A DNA stretch of 64,000 bases, from the NCBI RefSeq assembly GCF_036250695.1, contig NZ_CP109427.1:6386001-6450000 (forward strand), given 5' to 3'. The position numbers and the translations under genes were made by a program. Under the pieces are notes generated by a model. The model ran no database searches, was not told the origin of the DNA, and was given only the letters and a program-made list of their open reading frames with translations. Origin of the DNA: Streptomyces sp. NBC_01497. GTDB lineage: Bacteria; Actinomycetota; Actinomycetes; Streptomycetales; Streptomycetaceae. This document shows positions 39,551-43,523 of this stretch, piece by piece (positions within the stretch are counted from its first letter, which is position 1; the number at the start of each line of letters is the position of its first letter).

Positions 39551-40984
39551 GTGACGTCCCGAAAGCCTGATGAGCAATTGGCGCGCAACTCCAGACTCCG
39601 ACTCGTCCCGTCGCAGCCACTGGCCTCCGCACGACGGGCCGTGACCACCGGACGCAATCGCCAGGCACCCCGGCCGCCGGAGGGCACCCCGCCCCGTGCG
39701 GAGCTGGCCCGCCAGGCGAGGGCCGTCCTGTCCGATGCGGTGCGGATGGCCCGCTGGGCCGCCGCGGACCGCGACCCTGGGGCGGGGCCCCTGGGTCCGA
39801 AGGCCCTGGAACGGGCTGTCACCACGCTGGATCTGACGGCCTCCCAGGCGCACACGGCGTGGGACCGGGCCAAGCTCTCCGGCCTCGTGGAAGTCCACGA
39901 CGGCGTCGTACGCCCCGGCTGGCGGCTGCACGCGTGGGACAGCGACGACAGTGCCGTCCTGCGCGGCTGGGTGGCCCTGTTCGACGCGTGGTCGCTGATC
40001 CACCTCGCGCCCGCCGGCGTCGACCCCGGCCTCGTCGCCGAGGTCGTCGAGTCCGTCCCCCAGGTGCTCTCGCTCCTGCAGCTCTCCGCCGGTCCCGTCA
40101 CCGCGCCCGCCCTGCTCGACCTGCTGGCGCAGCGGGTGGCGGAACTCCACGAGGAACGCTGCGAGATCCCCGACGGCCCGGCGGCACCGGTCCCCGCCGA
40201 CGGTGACGCGCCGGCAGCGGCGGCCCGGCCCGACACCGGCTCGGCTGCGGTGCCCACGGCCGCCTCCCTCGCGCCGCTGCTGCGCTGGGCGCTGGAGGGC
40301 CTGGCCTCGGTGGGAGCGCTCGTCCTCGGCCACGGCCAGGCCACCCTCACCCCCCTCGGCAGCTGGGCGGTGTGGGTCAAGCTGGAGCAGATCTGCGTCG
40401 CGGCGCAAAGCCCCGCGGGCAACATCGAGCAGTCCGCGCAGGACATGCTCCGCGGCTGCGCCCAGCTCACCCCGGGACCCGCCCGCGCCGAGTACCGCGC
40501 CTGGCTCGCCGCCCGCACGGTCTCCAGCGCGGTCGGCGAGCTCGTCACCGTCGCCCGGGGCGAGGACGCCCTGCTGCGCGGCCTCGCCTTCGAGGCGCTG
40601 CGCGTCGTCGGGGCCCCGGCCGAGACCGCCGTGCGCGGTGTCGTCGAGGAGCCCCAACTACGCCCCTACGCGCTGATCTGGCTCGCCGAGTACGAGGGGG
40701 CCGACCCCGAGGACGCGCAGGAGGTCCTCACCCGCGAGGAATCCACCTGGCTCTGGGTCGACACGGCCGCGGCCGTCGCCGACCACGGCGACAGCGAACT
40801 GCTCGTACGGCACCTCGACTCGGCCGTGCAGGGCAACGTGCCCACCCTCATCGCGGAGGTCCGGGCCATAGGGCATCCCCGAACCGTCCAGGTGCTCGTC
40901 GCCCTCGCCGCCGCCCATCCCGACCCGGCGCTCGCCAAAGCGGTGCGACGGGCGGCCTTCCAGGTCCACACCGGCGGAGTCTGA
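39551..40984 (+). CDS. Conserved hypothetical protein with helical-repeat C-terminal half
   Basis: 477 residues, no signal peptide or membrane helix. The N-terminal half (about 50-180) contains a winged-helix-like stretch ('LDLTASQAHTAWDRAKLSGLVEVHDGVVRPG'). After a Pro/Ala-rich linker (about 195-230), the C-terminal 200 residues are made of Leu/Ala-rich paired helices resembling HEAT-type repeats ('LLRGLAFEALRVVGAPAETAVRG'). Start is GTG 39551, with GGGGAG 10 nt upstream. I recognise it only as an actinobacterial hypothetical. It stands alone between the hydrolase and the ABC-F leader. A scaffold or nucleic-acid-binding role is a guess. Confidence 0.7.
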   Translation: MTSRKPDEQLARNSRLRLVPSQPLASARRAVTTGRNRQAPRPPEGTPPRAELARQARAVLSDAVRMARWAAADRDPGAGPLGPKALERAVTTLDLTASQAHTAWDRAKLSGLVEVHDGVVRPGWRLHAWDSDDSAVLRGWVALFDAWSLIHLAPAGVDPGLVAEVVESVPQVLSLLQLSAGPVTAPALLDLLAQRVAELHEERCEIPDGPAAPVPADGDAPAAAARPDTGSAAVPTAASLAPLLRWALEGLASVGALVLGHGQATLTPLGSWAVWVKLEQICVAAQSPAGNIEQSAQDMLRGCAQLTPGPARAEYRAWLAARTVSSAVGELVTVARGEDALLRGLAFEALRVVGAPAETAVRGVVEEPQLRPYALIWLAEYEGADPEDAQEVLTREESTWLWVDTAAAVADHGDSELLVRHLDSAVQGNVPTLIAEVRAIGHPRTVQVLVALAAAHPDPALAKAVRRAAFQVHTGGV

Positions 40985-41239
40985 CGCGGTCGCGGTCGCC
41001 GTCGCGTCCGGCGGTCCCGCCGGTCGCGACGCGCACCCCGGCGCCGGGCTCTCCCGGGCCCCTTCACGCCCGTCCCGGGGGCTGTGCCCTCCCCGGCGTG
41101 TGCCCGCCGTCCCCGCAGTCGACTGTGAGCCGGATCTCAGTCTCCGGCCGGCCGCGGGCGGCGGGGCGCCGCGGCCTCCCGCCGGAGCCGGGGATACGCA
41201 GGCCGCGGCCCCGGCGTTCTCCCGCCCGGCGACGGCTGC

Positions 41240-41271
41240 TTGTACAGGGCGGGCGCGCCGACCGCTAGAAT
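41240..41271 (+). promoter_or_regulatory. Promoter of the ABC-F leader/gene
   Basis: A near-consensus -10 TAGAAT (41266-41271) has TTGTAC (41240-41245) upstream, with a long 20-bp spacer. Transcription should start at the A of the ATG at 41278, giving a leaderless leader ORF. Confidence 0.55.
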
Positions 41272-41277
41272 GGCGGT

Positions 41278-41301
41278 ATGGCAATTCTCCTTGTGCATTA
41301 G
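41278..41301 (+). CDS. Seven-codon leader peptide upstream of the ABC-F gene
   Basis: ATG GCA ATT CTC CTT GTG CAT followed by TAG, encoding MAILLVH. It begins 6 bp after a strong -10 box, exactly where a leaderless mRNA would start, and ends 58 bp before the ABC-F GTG start. Leader peptides that sense a stalled ribosome are known before several ABC-F and other antibiotic-resistance genes, where they release an attenuator. No strong terminator hairpin is obvious between it and the gene; the spacer is a C-rich stretch. Candidate regulatory peptide. Confidence 0.45.
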   Translation: MAILLVH

Positions 41302-41359
41302 CGGCGTCGAAGAATCTCCGCCTGCCCTTCCGCCGTCCTTCCCGCCCTGGAGTCTTTCC

Positions 41360-42958
41360 GTGATCACCGCAACCGGTGTCGAGCTGCGCGCCGGAGCCCG
41401 CATCCTCATCGAGTCCGCAACGTTCCGTGTCGCCAAGGGCGACCGCATCGGTCTGGTCGGCCGCAACGGCGCCGGCAAGACGACGCTCACCAAGTGCCTC
41501 GCGGGGGAGGCCCAGCCCGCCGCGGGCACCATCACCCGGGGCGGCGAGGTCGGCTACCTCCCGCAGGACCCGCGCACCGGGGACCTCGACATCCTGGCCC
41601 GTGACCGGGTCCTGTCCGCGCGGGGCCTCGACACCGTGCTGAAGAAGATGCGGGAGAACGAGGAGCGCATGGCCAACGGCCAGGGCGCCACCCGCGAGAA
41701 GGCGATGAAGAAGTACGAGCGCCTGGAGACGGAGTTCCTCACCAAGGGCGGGTACGCCGCCGAGGCCGAGGCCGCCACCATCGCCGCCGCGCTGGGCCTG
41801 CCCGATCGGGTGCTGGGCCAGCCGCTGCACACGCTCTCCGGTGGTCAGCGCCGCCGTATCGAGCTGGCGCGGATCCTCTTCTCCGACGCGGACACGCTGC
41901 TTCTGGACGAGCCGACCAACCACCTGGACGCCGACTCGATCGTCTGGCTGCGGGACTACCTCAAGACCTATCGCGGCGGTTTCATCGTCATCTCCCACGA
42001 CGTGGACCTGGTGGAGACGGTCGTGAACAAGGTGTTCTACCTGGACGCGAACCGCTCGCAGATCGACATCTACAACATGGGCTGGAAGCTGTACCAGCAG
42101 CAGCGTGAAGCCGACGAGAAGCGCCGCCACCGCGAGCGCGCCAACGCCGAGAAGAAGGCCGCGGCACTGAACGCGCAGGCCGACAAGATGCGCGCGAAGG
42201 CCACCAAGACCGTCGCCGCGCAGAACATGGCCCGCCGCGCCGAGCGGCTGCTCGCGGGCCTCGAAGAGGTGCGGGCGTCGGACAAGGTCGCCAAGCTGCG
42301 CTTCCCCGAACCGTCGCCGTGCGGCAAGACGCCGCTGACGGCCGAGGGCCTGTCGAAGTCGTACGGCTCGCTGGAGATCTTCACCGACGTCGACCTCGCG
42401 GTCGACAAGGGCTCCCGGGTCGTCATCCTGGGCCTGAACGGCGCGGGCAAGACGACACTGCTGCGACTGCTCGGCGGGGTGGAGAAGCCGGACACCGGCA
42501 CGGTCGTGCCGGGATACGGGCTCAAGCTCGGGTACTACGCGCAGGAGCACGAGACCCTCGACCCCGAACGTTCGGTCCTGGAGAACATGCGCTCCTCCGC
42601 GCCCGACCTGGACCTGGTGGAGGTCCGCAAGACGCTGGGCTCCTTCCTGTTCTCGGGCGACGACGTCGACAAGCCCGCCGGAGTGCTCTCCGGCGGTGAG
42701 AAGACCCGGCTGGCGCTCGCCACGCTGGTCGTCTCCTCGGCCAACGTGCTGCTGCTGGACGAGCCGACCAACAACCTCGACCCGGCCAGCCGCCAGGAGA
42801 TCCTCGGAGCGCTGCGCACGTACAAGGGCGCGGTCATCCTCGTCACCCACGACGAGGGCGCGGTCGAGGCCCTGGAGCCGGAGCGGATCATCCTGCTGCC
42901 GGACGGGGTCGAGGACCTGTGGGGAGCCGACTACAAGGACCTGGTCGCGCTCGCCTGA
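41360..42958 (+). CDS. ABC-F family ATPase (ribosome-associated)
   Basis: 532 residues with two ABC ATPase domains and no membrane part. Walker A motifs are GRNGAGKTT and GLNGAGKTT, signatures LSGGQ and LSGGE, Walker B 'LLLDEPTNHLD' and 'LLLDEPTNNLD'. A charged linker of about 80 residues (Lys/Arg/Ala-rich, 'QQREADEKRRHRERANAEKK') separates them, the part that reaches into the ribosomal exit site in this family. Start: GTG 41360 has GGAG at 7 nt; the frame continues upstream across the leader ORF but without support. It acts in translation, either as a housekeeping factor or in antibiotic resistance. A seven-codon leader ORF and its own promoter lie upstream. Confidence 0.93.
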   Translation: MITATGVELRAGARILIESATFRVAKGDRIGLVGRNGAGKTTLTKCLAGEAQPAAGTITRGGEVGYLPQDPRTGDLDILARDRVLSARGLDTVLKKMRENEERMANGQGATREKAMKKYERLETEFLTKGGYAAEAEAATIAAALGLPDRVLGQPLHTLSGGQRRRIELARILFSDADTLLLDEPTNHLDADSIVWLRDYLKTYRGGFIVISHDVDLVETVVNKVFYLDANRSQIDIYNMGWKLYQQQREADEKRRHRERANAEKKAAALNAQADKMRAKATKTVAAQNMARRAERLLAGLEEVRASDKVAKLRFPEPSPCGKTPLTAEGLSKSYGSLEIFTDVDLAVDKGSRVVILGLNGAGKTTLLRLLGGVEKPDTGTVVPGYGLKLGYYAQEHETLDPERSVLENMRSSAPDLDLVEVRKTLGSFLFSGDDVDKPAGVLSGGEKTRLALATLVVSSANVLLLDEPTNNLDPASRQEILGALRTYKGAVILVTHDEGAVEALEPERIILLPDGVEDLWGADYKDLVALA

Positions 42959-43238: not shown

Positions 43239-43523
43239 GATCAACTTCGTATGGATCATTCGGCTCAGCGGTGATCCATCATCTGGGGGAGAGCGTCTAC
43301 TGCCGCGGCGCGGCTGCGTGCGGATAGCACGTATCGTGCCCGACTTCCGCTTTTTGGCCGGAAAACCTCGCTGACCAGGCACTTCTTTCCGGTTGTCGGC
43401 GGAATCCCGTCATGATCGCCGCTGGAACGGCCAATTCCATTCGTGCTGAAATGTTGAAGTGCGGTCCAGCATGTCGAGCGGACCTTGCCGAATGGGTGGC
43501 CAGGACGGCCGCTAGGGGTGATC
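43239..43523. promoter_or_regulatory. gbn upstream region with five GATC sites
   Basis: An A/T-richer non-coding region before gbn. GATC occurs at 43239, 43254, 43273, 43414 and 43520, the first three within 38 bp. Gbn itself is, as I recall, a GATC-binding nucleoid-associated-type protein, so these may be autoregulatory sites. A 13-bp palindrome GCACGTATCGTGC is at 43327-43339. No clear -35/-10 pair can be named. Confidence 0.5.

Follow-up and report, generated by a model that had tools for sequence, protein, structure and literature searches.

What does a seven-codon ORF, placed directly behind a promoter element, do in front of an ABC-F gene of Streptomyces, and could it sense the drugs against which such genes protect the ribosome? 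In the window (the whole 64,000-nt stretch of DNA that was analysed), the first-pass annotation had described a MAILLVH ORF that ends 58 bp before the ABC-F gene and stands behind a -10 box, and these coordinates were confirmed. The leader ORF (ATGGCAATTCTCCTTGTGCATTAG; codons ATG, GCA, ATT, CTC, CTT, GTG and CAT, followed by the stop TAG) occupies positions 41278-41301 of the plus strand, as recognized by sequence reading and conservation, and 58 nt separate its end at 41301 from the GTG start codon of the ABC-F gene at 41360.

The -10 box TAGAAT (41266-41271, plus strand) lies 6 nt (GGCGGT) upstream of the leader ATG at 41278, and the mean distance between -10 box and transcription start is given as 6.3 nt for measured promoters of S. 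lividans (PMC8079986), suggesting that the mRNA starts on the A of the leader ATG (41278, plus strand). Because the distance from the -10 box to the ATG is only 6-7 nt, the leader is predicted to be leaderless; its translation without an upstream Shine-Dalgarno (SD) sequence would follow only if the transcript begins at the ATG. The predicted transcript leader before the ABC-F gene would be 82 nt long, with no SD sequence for the leader ORF. A generic sigma-70 promoter and terminator scan of the window returned no promoter at the leader site; the -35 region is poor, the nearest TTG hexamer found by eye being TTGTAC (41240), 20 nt from the -10 box. An Rfam search of positions 40900-41500 gave zero matches.

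The ABC-F gene and its orthologs

The gene behind the leader (41360-42958, plus strand) has a GTG start, encodes 532 amino acids, and was assigned by NCBIfam model NF000355.4 (ribosomal-protection-like ABC-F), which it passes narrowly (387.4 bits against a cut-off of 380), by gene order, and by its match to PoxtA, the best solved (PDB) relative by sequence. Matches with E ≤ 1e-100 are present in 286 of 296 genomes of the class, with one match in most of them. According to Pfam assignments, the upstream neighbours are a phosphate transporter, a class II aldolase, an alpha/beta hydrolase and a protein without a family, and the downstream neighbour is an enoyl-CoA hydratase; gene order in the window agrees with that of S. 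coelicolor SCO1840-SCO1845 as described in PMC11272600. In addition, the printed SCO1840 primer has a single match in the window, at 41391-41410 with three mismatches (0.02 expected).

As judged from gene order and the primer match, the window gene is the ortholog of SCO1840, and it is probably also that of M. tuberculosis Rv1473/OcrA; it shares 64% identity with a Mycobacteriaceae ortholog. Rv1473/OcrA is presumably the name that belongs to this ortholog group; the name Rv1473 was absent from the 120 entries listed. In the open-licence literature, covered mostly by title, no leader was described for SCO1840 or Rv1473, and nothing concerned their switching-on apart from a published report, known by title, in which WhiB7 is said to regulate Rv1473. 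SCO1840 appears in one paper of that literature, the available part of which names no leader. Three closely spaced GATC sites follow the ABC-F gene (43239-43280), and gbn (SCO1839) is predicted by gene order to be near them; the gbn protein is described as binding GATC motifs (PMC9239103).

Conservation and occurrence of the leader ORF

The first-pass annotation had staked its proposal on conservation of the leader across Streptomyces, and both the ATG and the codons are kept: the leader ORF, with its ATG 6-7 nt after a TANNNT box, was found in 108 of 108 Streptomycetaceae loci examined, namely the window, the best 80 of 591 relatives (close ones) and 27 loci from a class-wide search, with genomes that may overlap between these sources. 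When 4-9 nt were permitted between -10 box and ATG, each of the 97 loci with a located gene start gave a single match, always at 6 or 7 nt; the remaining 13 loci were re-oriented and then searched at 6-7 nt only, 12 of them being positive. This set includes two loci from other families, one with a leader (L113) and one without (L114). Together with L113, the 108 Streptomycetaceae leaders form the set of 109 used below, in which the presence of TANNNT in 109/109 is by construction. Among the 80 loci of the close relatives (1.15 Mb, both strands), the combination of TANNNT, 6-7 nt, ATG and 3-14 codons occurs at the leader in 80/80 and at three other sites. An N-terminal extension of the ABC-F protein was ruled out by the leader-to-gene distance, which modulo 3 is distributed 43/42/24 over the 109 loci.

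Seven codons are present in 98/109 leaders, with MAILLAH (44), MAILLVH (12) and MANLLAD (8) as the most frequent peptides, and the stop codon is TAG in 108/109. Among the 108 Streptomycetaceae leaders, residue 2 is Ala in 104 (Thr in 2, Pro in 1 and Asp in 1) and Leu occupies position 4 in 100, while 14 different residues are found at position 3 (Ile 64, Phe 14, Gly 0). All four Ala codons are used among the 98 seven-codon leaders (GCC 63, GCA 29, GCT 4 and GCG 1). A search among four ABC-F-like paralogs in the same genome, which covered the 600 nt ahead of base 1560 in each locus and used gene starts that were not curated, revealed no comparable mini-ORF.

GGAAAA and TTGC are common to most Streptomycetaceae promoters before the leader (L006-L112), and positions 41240-41265 of the window have neither. 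TTGC starts 14 nt before the -10 box in 95/109 loci, 13 nt before it in 6 and 9 nt before it in 1, and is missing from 7. A WblC-activated promoter, the consensus of which is given as GAAAWY, 3 bp, TKGMNN, 16-19 bp and TANNNT (PMC7157823), was considered and rejected: the boxes are similar, but the spacer is about 8 nt rather than 16-19, and TTGC is absent in the window. The printed S. coelicolor SCO1841 RT-PCR primer is the reverse complement of the conserved promoter, with exact matches in L047:2896-2915 and L051:44-63; the corresponding site in the window is at about 41240-41300 on the minus strand. For this reason, SCO1841 seems to have been annotated antisense over the leader promoter, an annotation that may be spurious and could have hidden the leader.

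Sampling of other families revealed the same architecture, with unrelated peptides of 5-13 codons (including MMPVAD, MNSVAD, MRTPD, MRAPD, MPSSPSR and MLRCEP), in 33 of 109 loci: in 29 of the first 80 upstream regions, against 0.39 expected from dinucleotide shuffles, and in 4 of 29 further loci. This sample was not random, the 80 loci being hand-picked from the listed class matches and the 29 originating from 30 chosen for family coverage (one Streptomyces was dropped), and one or two of the leaders (e.g., that of L141, 146 nt away) may be due to chance. Outside Streptomycetaceae, the leader device is common, not universal. Some loci have a TANNNT box 8-12 nt before the ABC-F start itself; in L116, L117, L151, L174, L178, L180 and L186-L188, from several families, this box lies 9-11 nt before the start, a search for the leader ORF found none, and the ABC-F gene itself looks nearly leaderless.

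Predicted pairing between the leader codons and the ABC-F start site

The computed folds place the leader opposite the start site of the gene that it precedes (all positions on the plus strand). The SD sequence of the ABC-F gene, GGAG at 41349-41352 (from sequence and duplexes), is predicted to pair with an anti-SD CUCC in leader codons 4-5 (41287-41290), in folds and in aligned columns that are paired in 91-93 of 94 sequences. The AUGG with which the leader begins (41278-41281) is predicted, from the minimum free energy (MFE) fold and duplexes, to pair with CCGU (41358-41361) over the ABC-F start codon, a pairing that RNAalifold did not recover, and a hairpin (GCGGCG..CGCCGU; 41301-41336) is predicted in the MFE fold right after the leader stop. 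AUGG:CCGU, CUCC:GGAG and the post-stop hairpin appear in MFE folds of the window and of most of ten other Streptomycetaceae loci folded singly, the exceptions being L076, which has a different fold, and L032, which pairs other leader bases. Folding of the post-leader segment has a mean z of -1.2, with z below -1 in 62/108 loci. RNAalifold, applied to a MAFFT alignment of 94 distinct sequences (96/109 loci kept, leader-to-gene distance 75-100 nt), recovered only CUCC:GGAG, a 3-bp extension of it and a 3-bp hairpin in the coding sequence, at -3.8, a weak value with the loops misaligned; per-locus folding was used in place of alignment-based folding, which was weak.

Pairing of the SD sequence with the leader ORF averaged 0.66 over the 109 loci, against 0.21 for shuffled leader codons (180 shuffles, three for each of 60 loci). 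In silico, opening of the ABC-F site costs 12.2 kcal/mol in the free RNA and 8.0 kcal/mol when a ribosome footprint is placed over codon 3, the second value being the lower in 105/109 loci (from 10.1 to 6.6 kcal/mol in the window itself); with shuffled leader codons the cost was 9.3 kcal/mol. In a footprint control over 107 loci, masking of nt 30-51 or 35-56 gave 12.1 kcal/mol and masking of nt 25-46 gave 9.9 kcal/mol. The probability that the SD sequence is unpaired rose from 0.20 to 0.31 on masking of the leader, compared to 0.23 with shuffled leaders, and the gain exceeded 0.2 in just 31/109 loci. Among the 29 loci from other families, 18 show a reduced opening cost (the mean going from 10.1 to 8.8 kcal/mol), and pairing of the SD sequence with the leader averages 0.26. 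In these models, the SD sequence and start codon of the ABC-F gene would be sequestered by a pairing that a leader-bound ribosome disrupts.

Leader and site also coevolve. With 23 distinct leaders, each represented by its first 24 nt (22 from other families, several per family in places, and one from Streptomyces), duplexes of each leader with its own site averaged -16.7 kcal/mol, against -12.1 kcal/mol for swapped partners (0/20,000 permutations), with matching examples such as CTCCGTGGC with GCCACGGAG and CACTCCC with GGGAGTG. In 21/29 other-family loci, the leader's own duplex surpassed the mean of untranscribed upstream 24-mers. Within Streptomycetaceae, the corresponding figure is 9/20,000 permutations over 44 distinct combinations, and leader nt 1-9 against the spacer and start alone gave no significant result (7043/20,000 permutations). 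The third position of codon 2 (leader nt 6) covaries with a spacer base in the 82 loci that have seven codons and a 7-nt spacer (C-G 56, A-T 16, G-T 1, non-pairs 9), and when other leader lengths are added, the two bases pair in 76/87. The ABC-F gene tree (108 loci, 214 branches) shows 17 changes at nt 6 and 7 at the spacer base; both change on 4 branches, three of these joint changes restoring the pair and one not, and the solitary changes number 13 for nt 6 and 3 for the spacer base.

A candidate translational attenuator, its signal and its relatives

The reading favoured here, with a probability of about two in three, is a translational attenuator that operates by leader stalling and carries its anti-SD arm inside the leaderless ORF. 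Translational control is preferred because no terminator-like feature was found: an intrinsic terminator was ruled out by the scan of the window and by the runs of T between leader and binding site, the longest of which is 3 in 109 loci. In the proposed mechanism, ribosomes would enter the 5'-terminal leader ORF as a leaderless start; fast reading of the leader would allow the RNA to refold, with leader codons pairing to the ABC-F binding site (CUCC:GGAG together with AUGG over the start codon, closed by the post-stop hairpin), and the sequestered site would support poor ABC-F translation. A drug would hold the ribosome on early leader codons, most likely with Ala2 penultimate and codon 3 in the P site, in the manner of chloramphenicol or linezolid; the stalled ribosome would cover the pairing strand, leaving the binding site free, and ABC-F would be made. 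By clearing drug-bound ribosomes, the protein may then turn itself down. The suggestion of the first-pass annotation that the leader is a regulator of the ribosome-stalling type is supported in that the ORF exists, is conserved, is predicted to be leaderless, and has the position and predicted pairing of such a regulator; the mode of action now proposed is translational attenuation, with the anti-SD in the leader and no intrinsic terminator. In a co-culture to which no drug was added, sco1840 showed no up-regulation (PMC11272600), which counts against a switch.

As for the inducing signal, a phenicol or oxazolidinone is a tentative choice to which somewhat less than even odds are given. Stalling by chloramphenicol and linezolid is described as strongest with Ala as the penultimate residue of the nascent chain, and less so with Ser or Thr; stalling by chloramphenicol is relieved by Gly at position 0 or +1 and helped by Asp at position 0 (PMC8987054, PMC11832420). 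The near-invariant Ala2 and the variable, never-Gly residue 3 would fit such Ala-dependent stalling better than they would lincosamide or pleuromutilin signals, and codon 3 in the P site would put the ribosome over the pairing strand. OcrA is described as a linezolid and chloramphenicol protection protein in mycobacteria that limits linezolid potency in M. tuberculosis (PMC9159947), with an action also on macrolides in some reports (PMC13041422). Both OcrA and PoxtA act on phenicols and oxazolidinones, in line with the proposed signal. Lincomycin and pleuromutilins, which the first-pass annotation had included among the candidate inducers, appear less likely, because phenicols and oxazolidinones are the drugs on which the probable ortholog OcrA acts and whose stalling context Ala2 fits. 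Ala2 could, instead, serve leaderless initiation. Leaders that end in Ala-Asp-stop occur in L126, L138 and L143 (MMPVAD, MNSVAD) and in L008, L009 and L011 (MANLLAD); they agree with the context published as favourable to chloramphenicol stalling, in which Ala stands at -1 and Asp at 0, but have a stop codon in the A site. Similar (Thr/Ala)-Asp contexts are reportedly found in the cat-86 and cmlA leaders.

Unlikely, but the best surviving of the alternatives, is a leader that senses nothing: by bringing ribosomes to the 5' end, it would open the hairpin and stabilise the mRNA, with ABC-F output tracking leader initiation whether or not a drug is present. Peptides that vary between families within a constant architecture speak for this alternative, as do the RNA pairing, which alone accounts for CTC-CTC and AUGG, and the near-expected occurrence of Ala/Ser/Thr inside the leaders of other families (20/26, against 17.3 at an assumed 25%). 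It is opposed by leader nt 5, which is C in 107/108 Streptomycetaceae although unpaired in the predicted fold of the window, while the third base of the codon is free, and by two other Streptomyces ABC-F genes that are described as drug-induced, with drug-stalled uORFs (PMC12421871). Rather improbable is a leader whose stalling acts on transcription, by itself or in addition to translation, by way of Rho or a non-canonical terminator. Terminator/anti-terminator control has been proposed or shown for are5sc, lmrC, vmlR and others (PMC12421871, PMC10201436), and Rho-dependent ends are invisible to the scans used; the absence of a terminator in the window scan and the short T-runs argue against it, as does a pairing that converges on the SD sequence and start codon. 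A general stress or amino-acid attenuator, in which the leader senses the supply of Leu, Ile or Val or any slowdown of translation, can be given very little weight: Streptomyces leaders are Leu-rich, and sensors of Leu and Ile are among the leaderless leaders described in S. lividans (PMC8079986), but the Leu codons are the anti-SD, MLLLD is the only leader with a Leu run among other families, and the target is a ribosome-protection protein. Finally, short ORFs are common and the -35 region in the window is poor, but a chance ORF or an artefact beside a promoter is scarcely credible in view of 80/80 loci against three other sites, 29/80 against 0.39 expected, and the coevolution.

The proposed translational attenuator resembles the cat and erm attenuators in its short leader ORF, its sequestered resistance-gene binding site and a held ribosome that would free this site, and differs from them in a leader that is predicted leaderless, an anti-SD inside the leader codons and an ABC-F target. 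Translational attenuation is described for chloramphenicol- and macrolide-resistance genes (PMC13410324). For ABC-F genes, control at the level of translation has a known precedent in cplR of C. difficile, which, like vmlR of B. subtilis, has a uORF; the SD sequence of cplR is sequestered, and the gene stays under control when the poly-U is absent (PMC10201436). In cplR, however, the SD sequence lies in the stem of an intrinsic terminator, and the cplR and vmlR uORFs are MR[I/M] and MIN (PMC10201436), whereas the present locus has no terminator, is predicted leaderless and has its anti-SD within the uORF.

In S. coelicolor, uORFs precede the ABC-F genes are5sc (MLV) and tiaA (MVGDDDISG), drug-dependent stalling is reported from toeprints of are5scL1 and tiaAL, and lmrC of S. 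lincolnensis is grouped with these genes as a Streptomyces ABC-F uORF case (PMC12421871). For are5sc and tiaA, each uORF is described as having a ribosome-binding site of its own, the 5'UTRs measure 232 and 194 bp, terminator/anti-terminator folds are predicted, and the drugs concerned are LSAP drugs (PMC12421871); the present case, in contrast, has a predicted 82-nt transcript leader without an SD sequence and belongs to a different ABC-F subgroup. The whiB7/wblC attenuator is likewise an actinobacterial uORF that senses translation stress upstream of resistance, and differs in that it controls a transcription factor, by transcription attenuation (PMC7157823, PMC12421871).

Leaderless regulatory ORFs before genes include the leader peptides of S. 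lividans (leuL, ilvL, trpL and others), seven of whose eight amino-acid leader peptides are called leaderless (PMC8079986), and the Cys uORFs of mycobacteria (PMC9031893, PMC4633059). Leaderless control peptides, which the first-pass annotation had considered little described, are therefore not new as such. Peptides of 12-29 residues, to which a role in amino-acid supply is assigned, make up the S. lividans set of eight (PMC8079986), whereas the present leaders have mostly 5-10 codons, anti-SD pairing and a ribosome-protection gene as target. As read from its sequence, the present device is set apart by a predicted leaderless start, by an anti-SD that forms part of the leader codons, and by the absence of a terminator.

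More speculatively, and with the odds against it, the leader may belong to a family of switches that sense antibiotics throughout the actinomycete class, each with a 5'-terminal leaderless mini-ORF that would be both drug sensor and anti-SD strand. Peptide and pairing would then co-evolve, and the peptide would be constrained only at residues that define the context for the drug, such as Ala2 in Streptomyces or the Ala-Asp preceding the stop codon in MMPVAD, MNSVAD and MANLLAD. The Ala2 pattern offers a sharp and cheap handle on drug-context sensing. If the leaderless sensor is true, an SD-free start would be shown to gate an SD-led gene, and such a switch would matter for an ABC-F protein that is present in 286/296 genomes of the class and whose probable ortholog, OcrA, limits linezolid potency.
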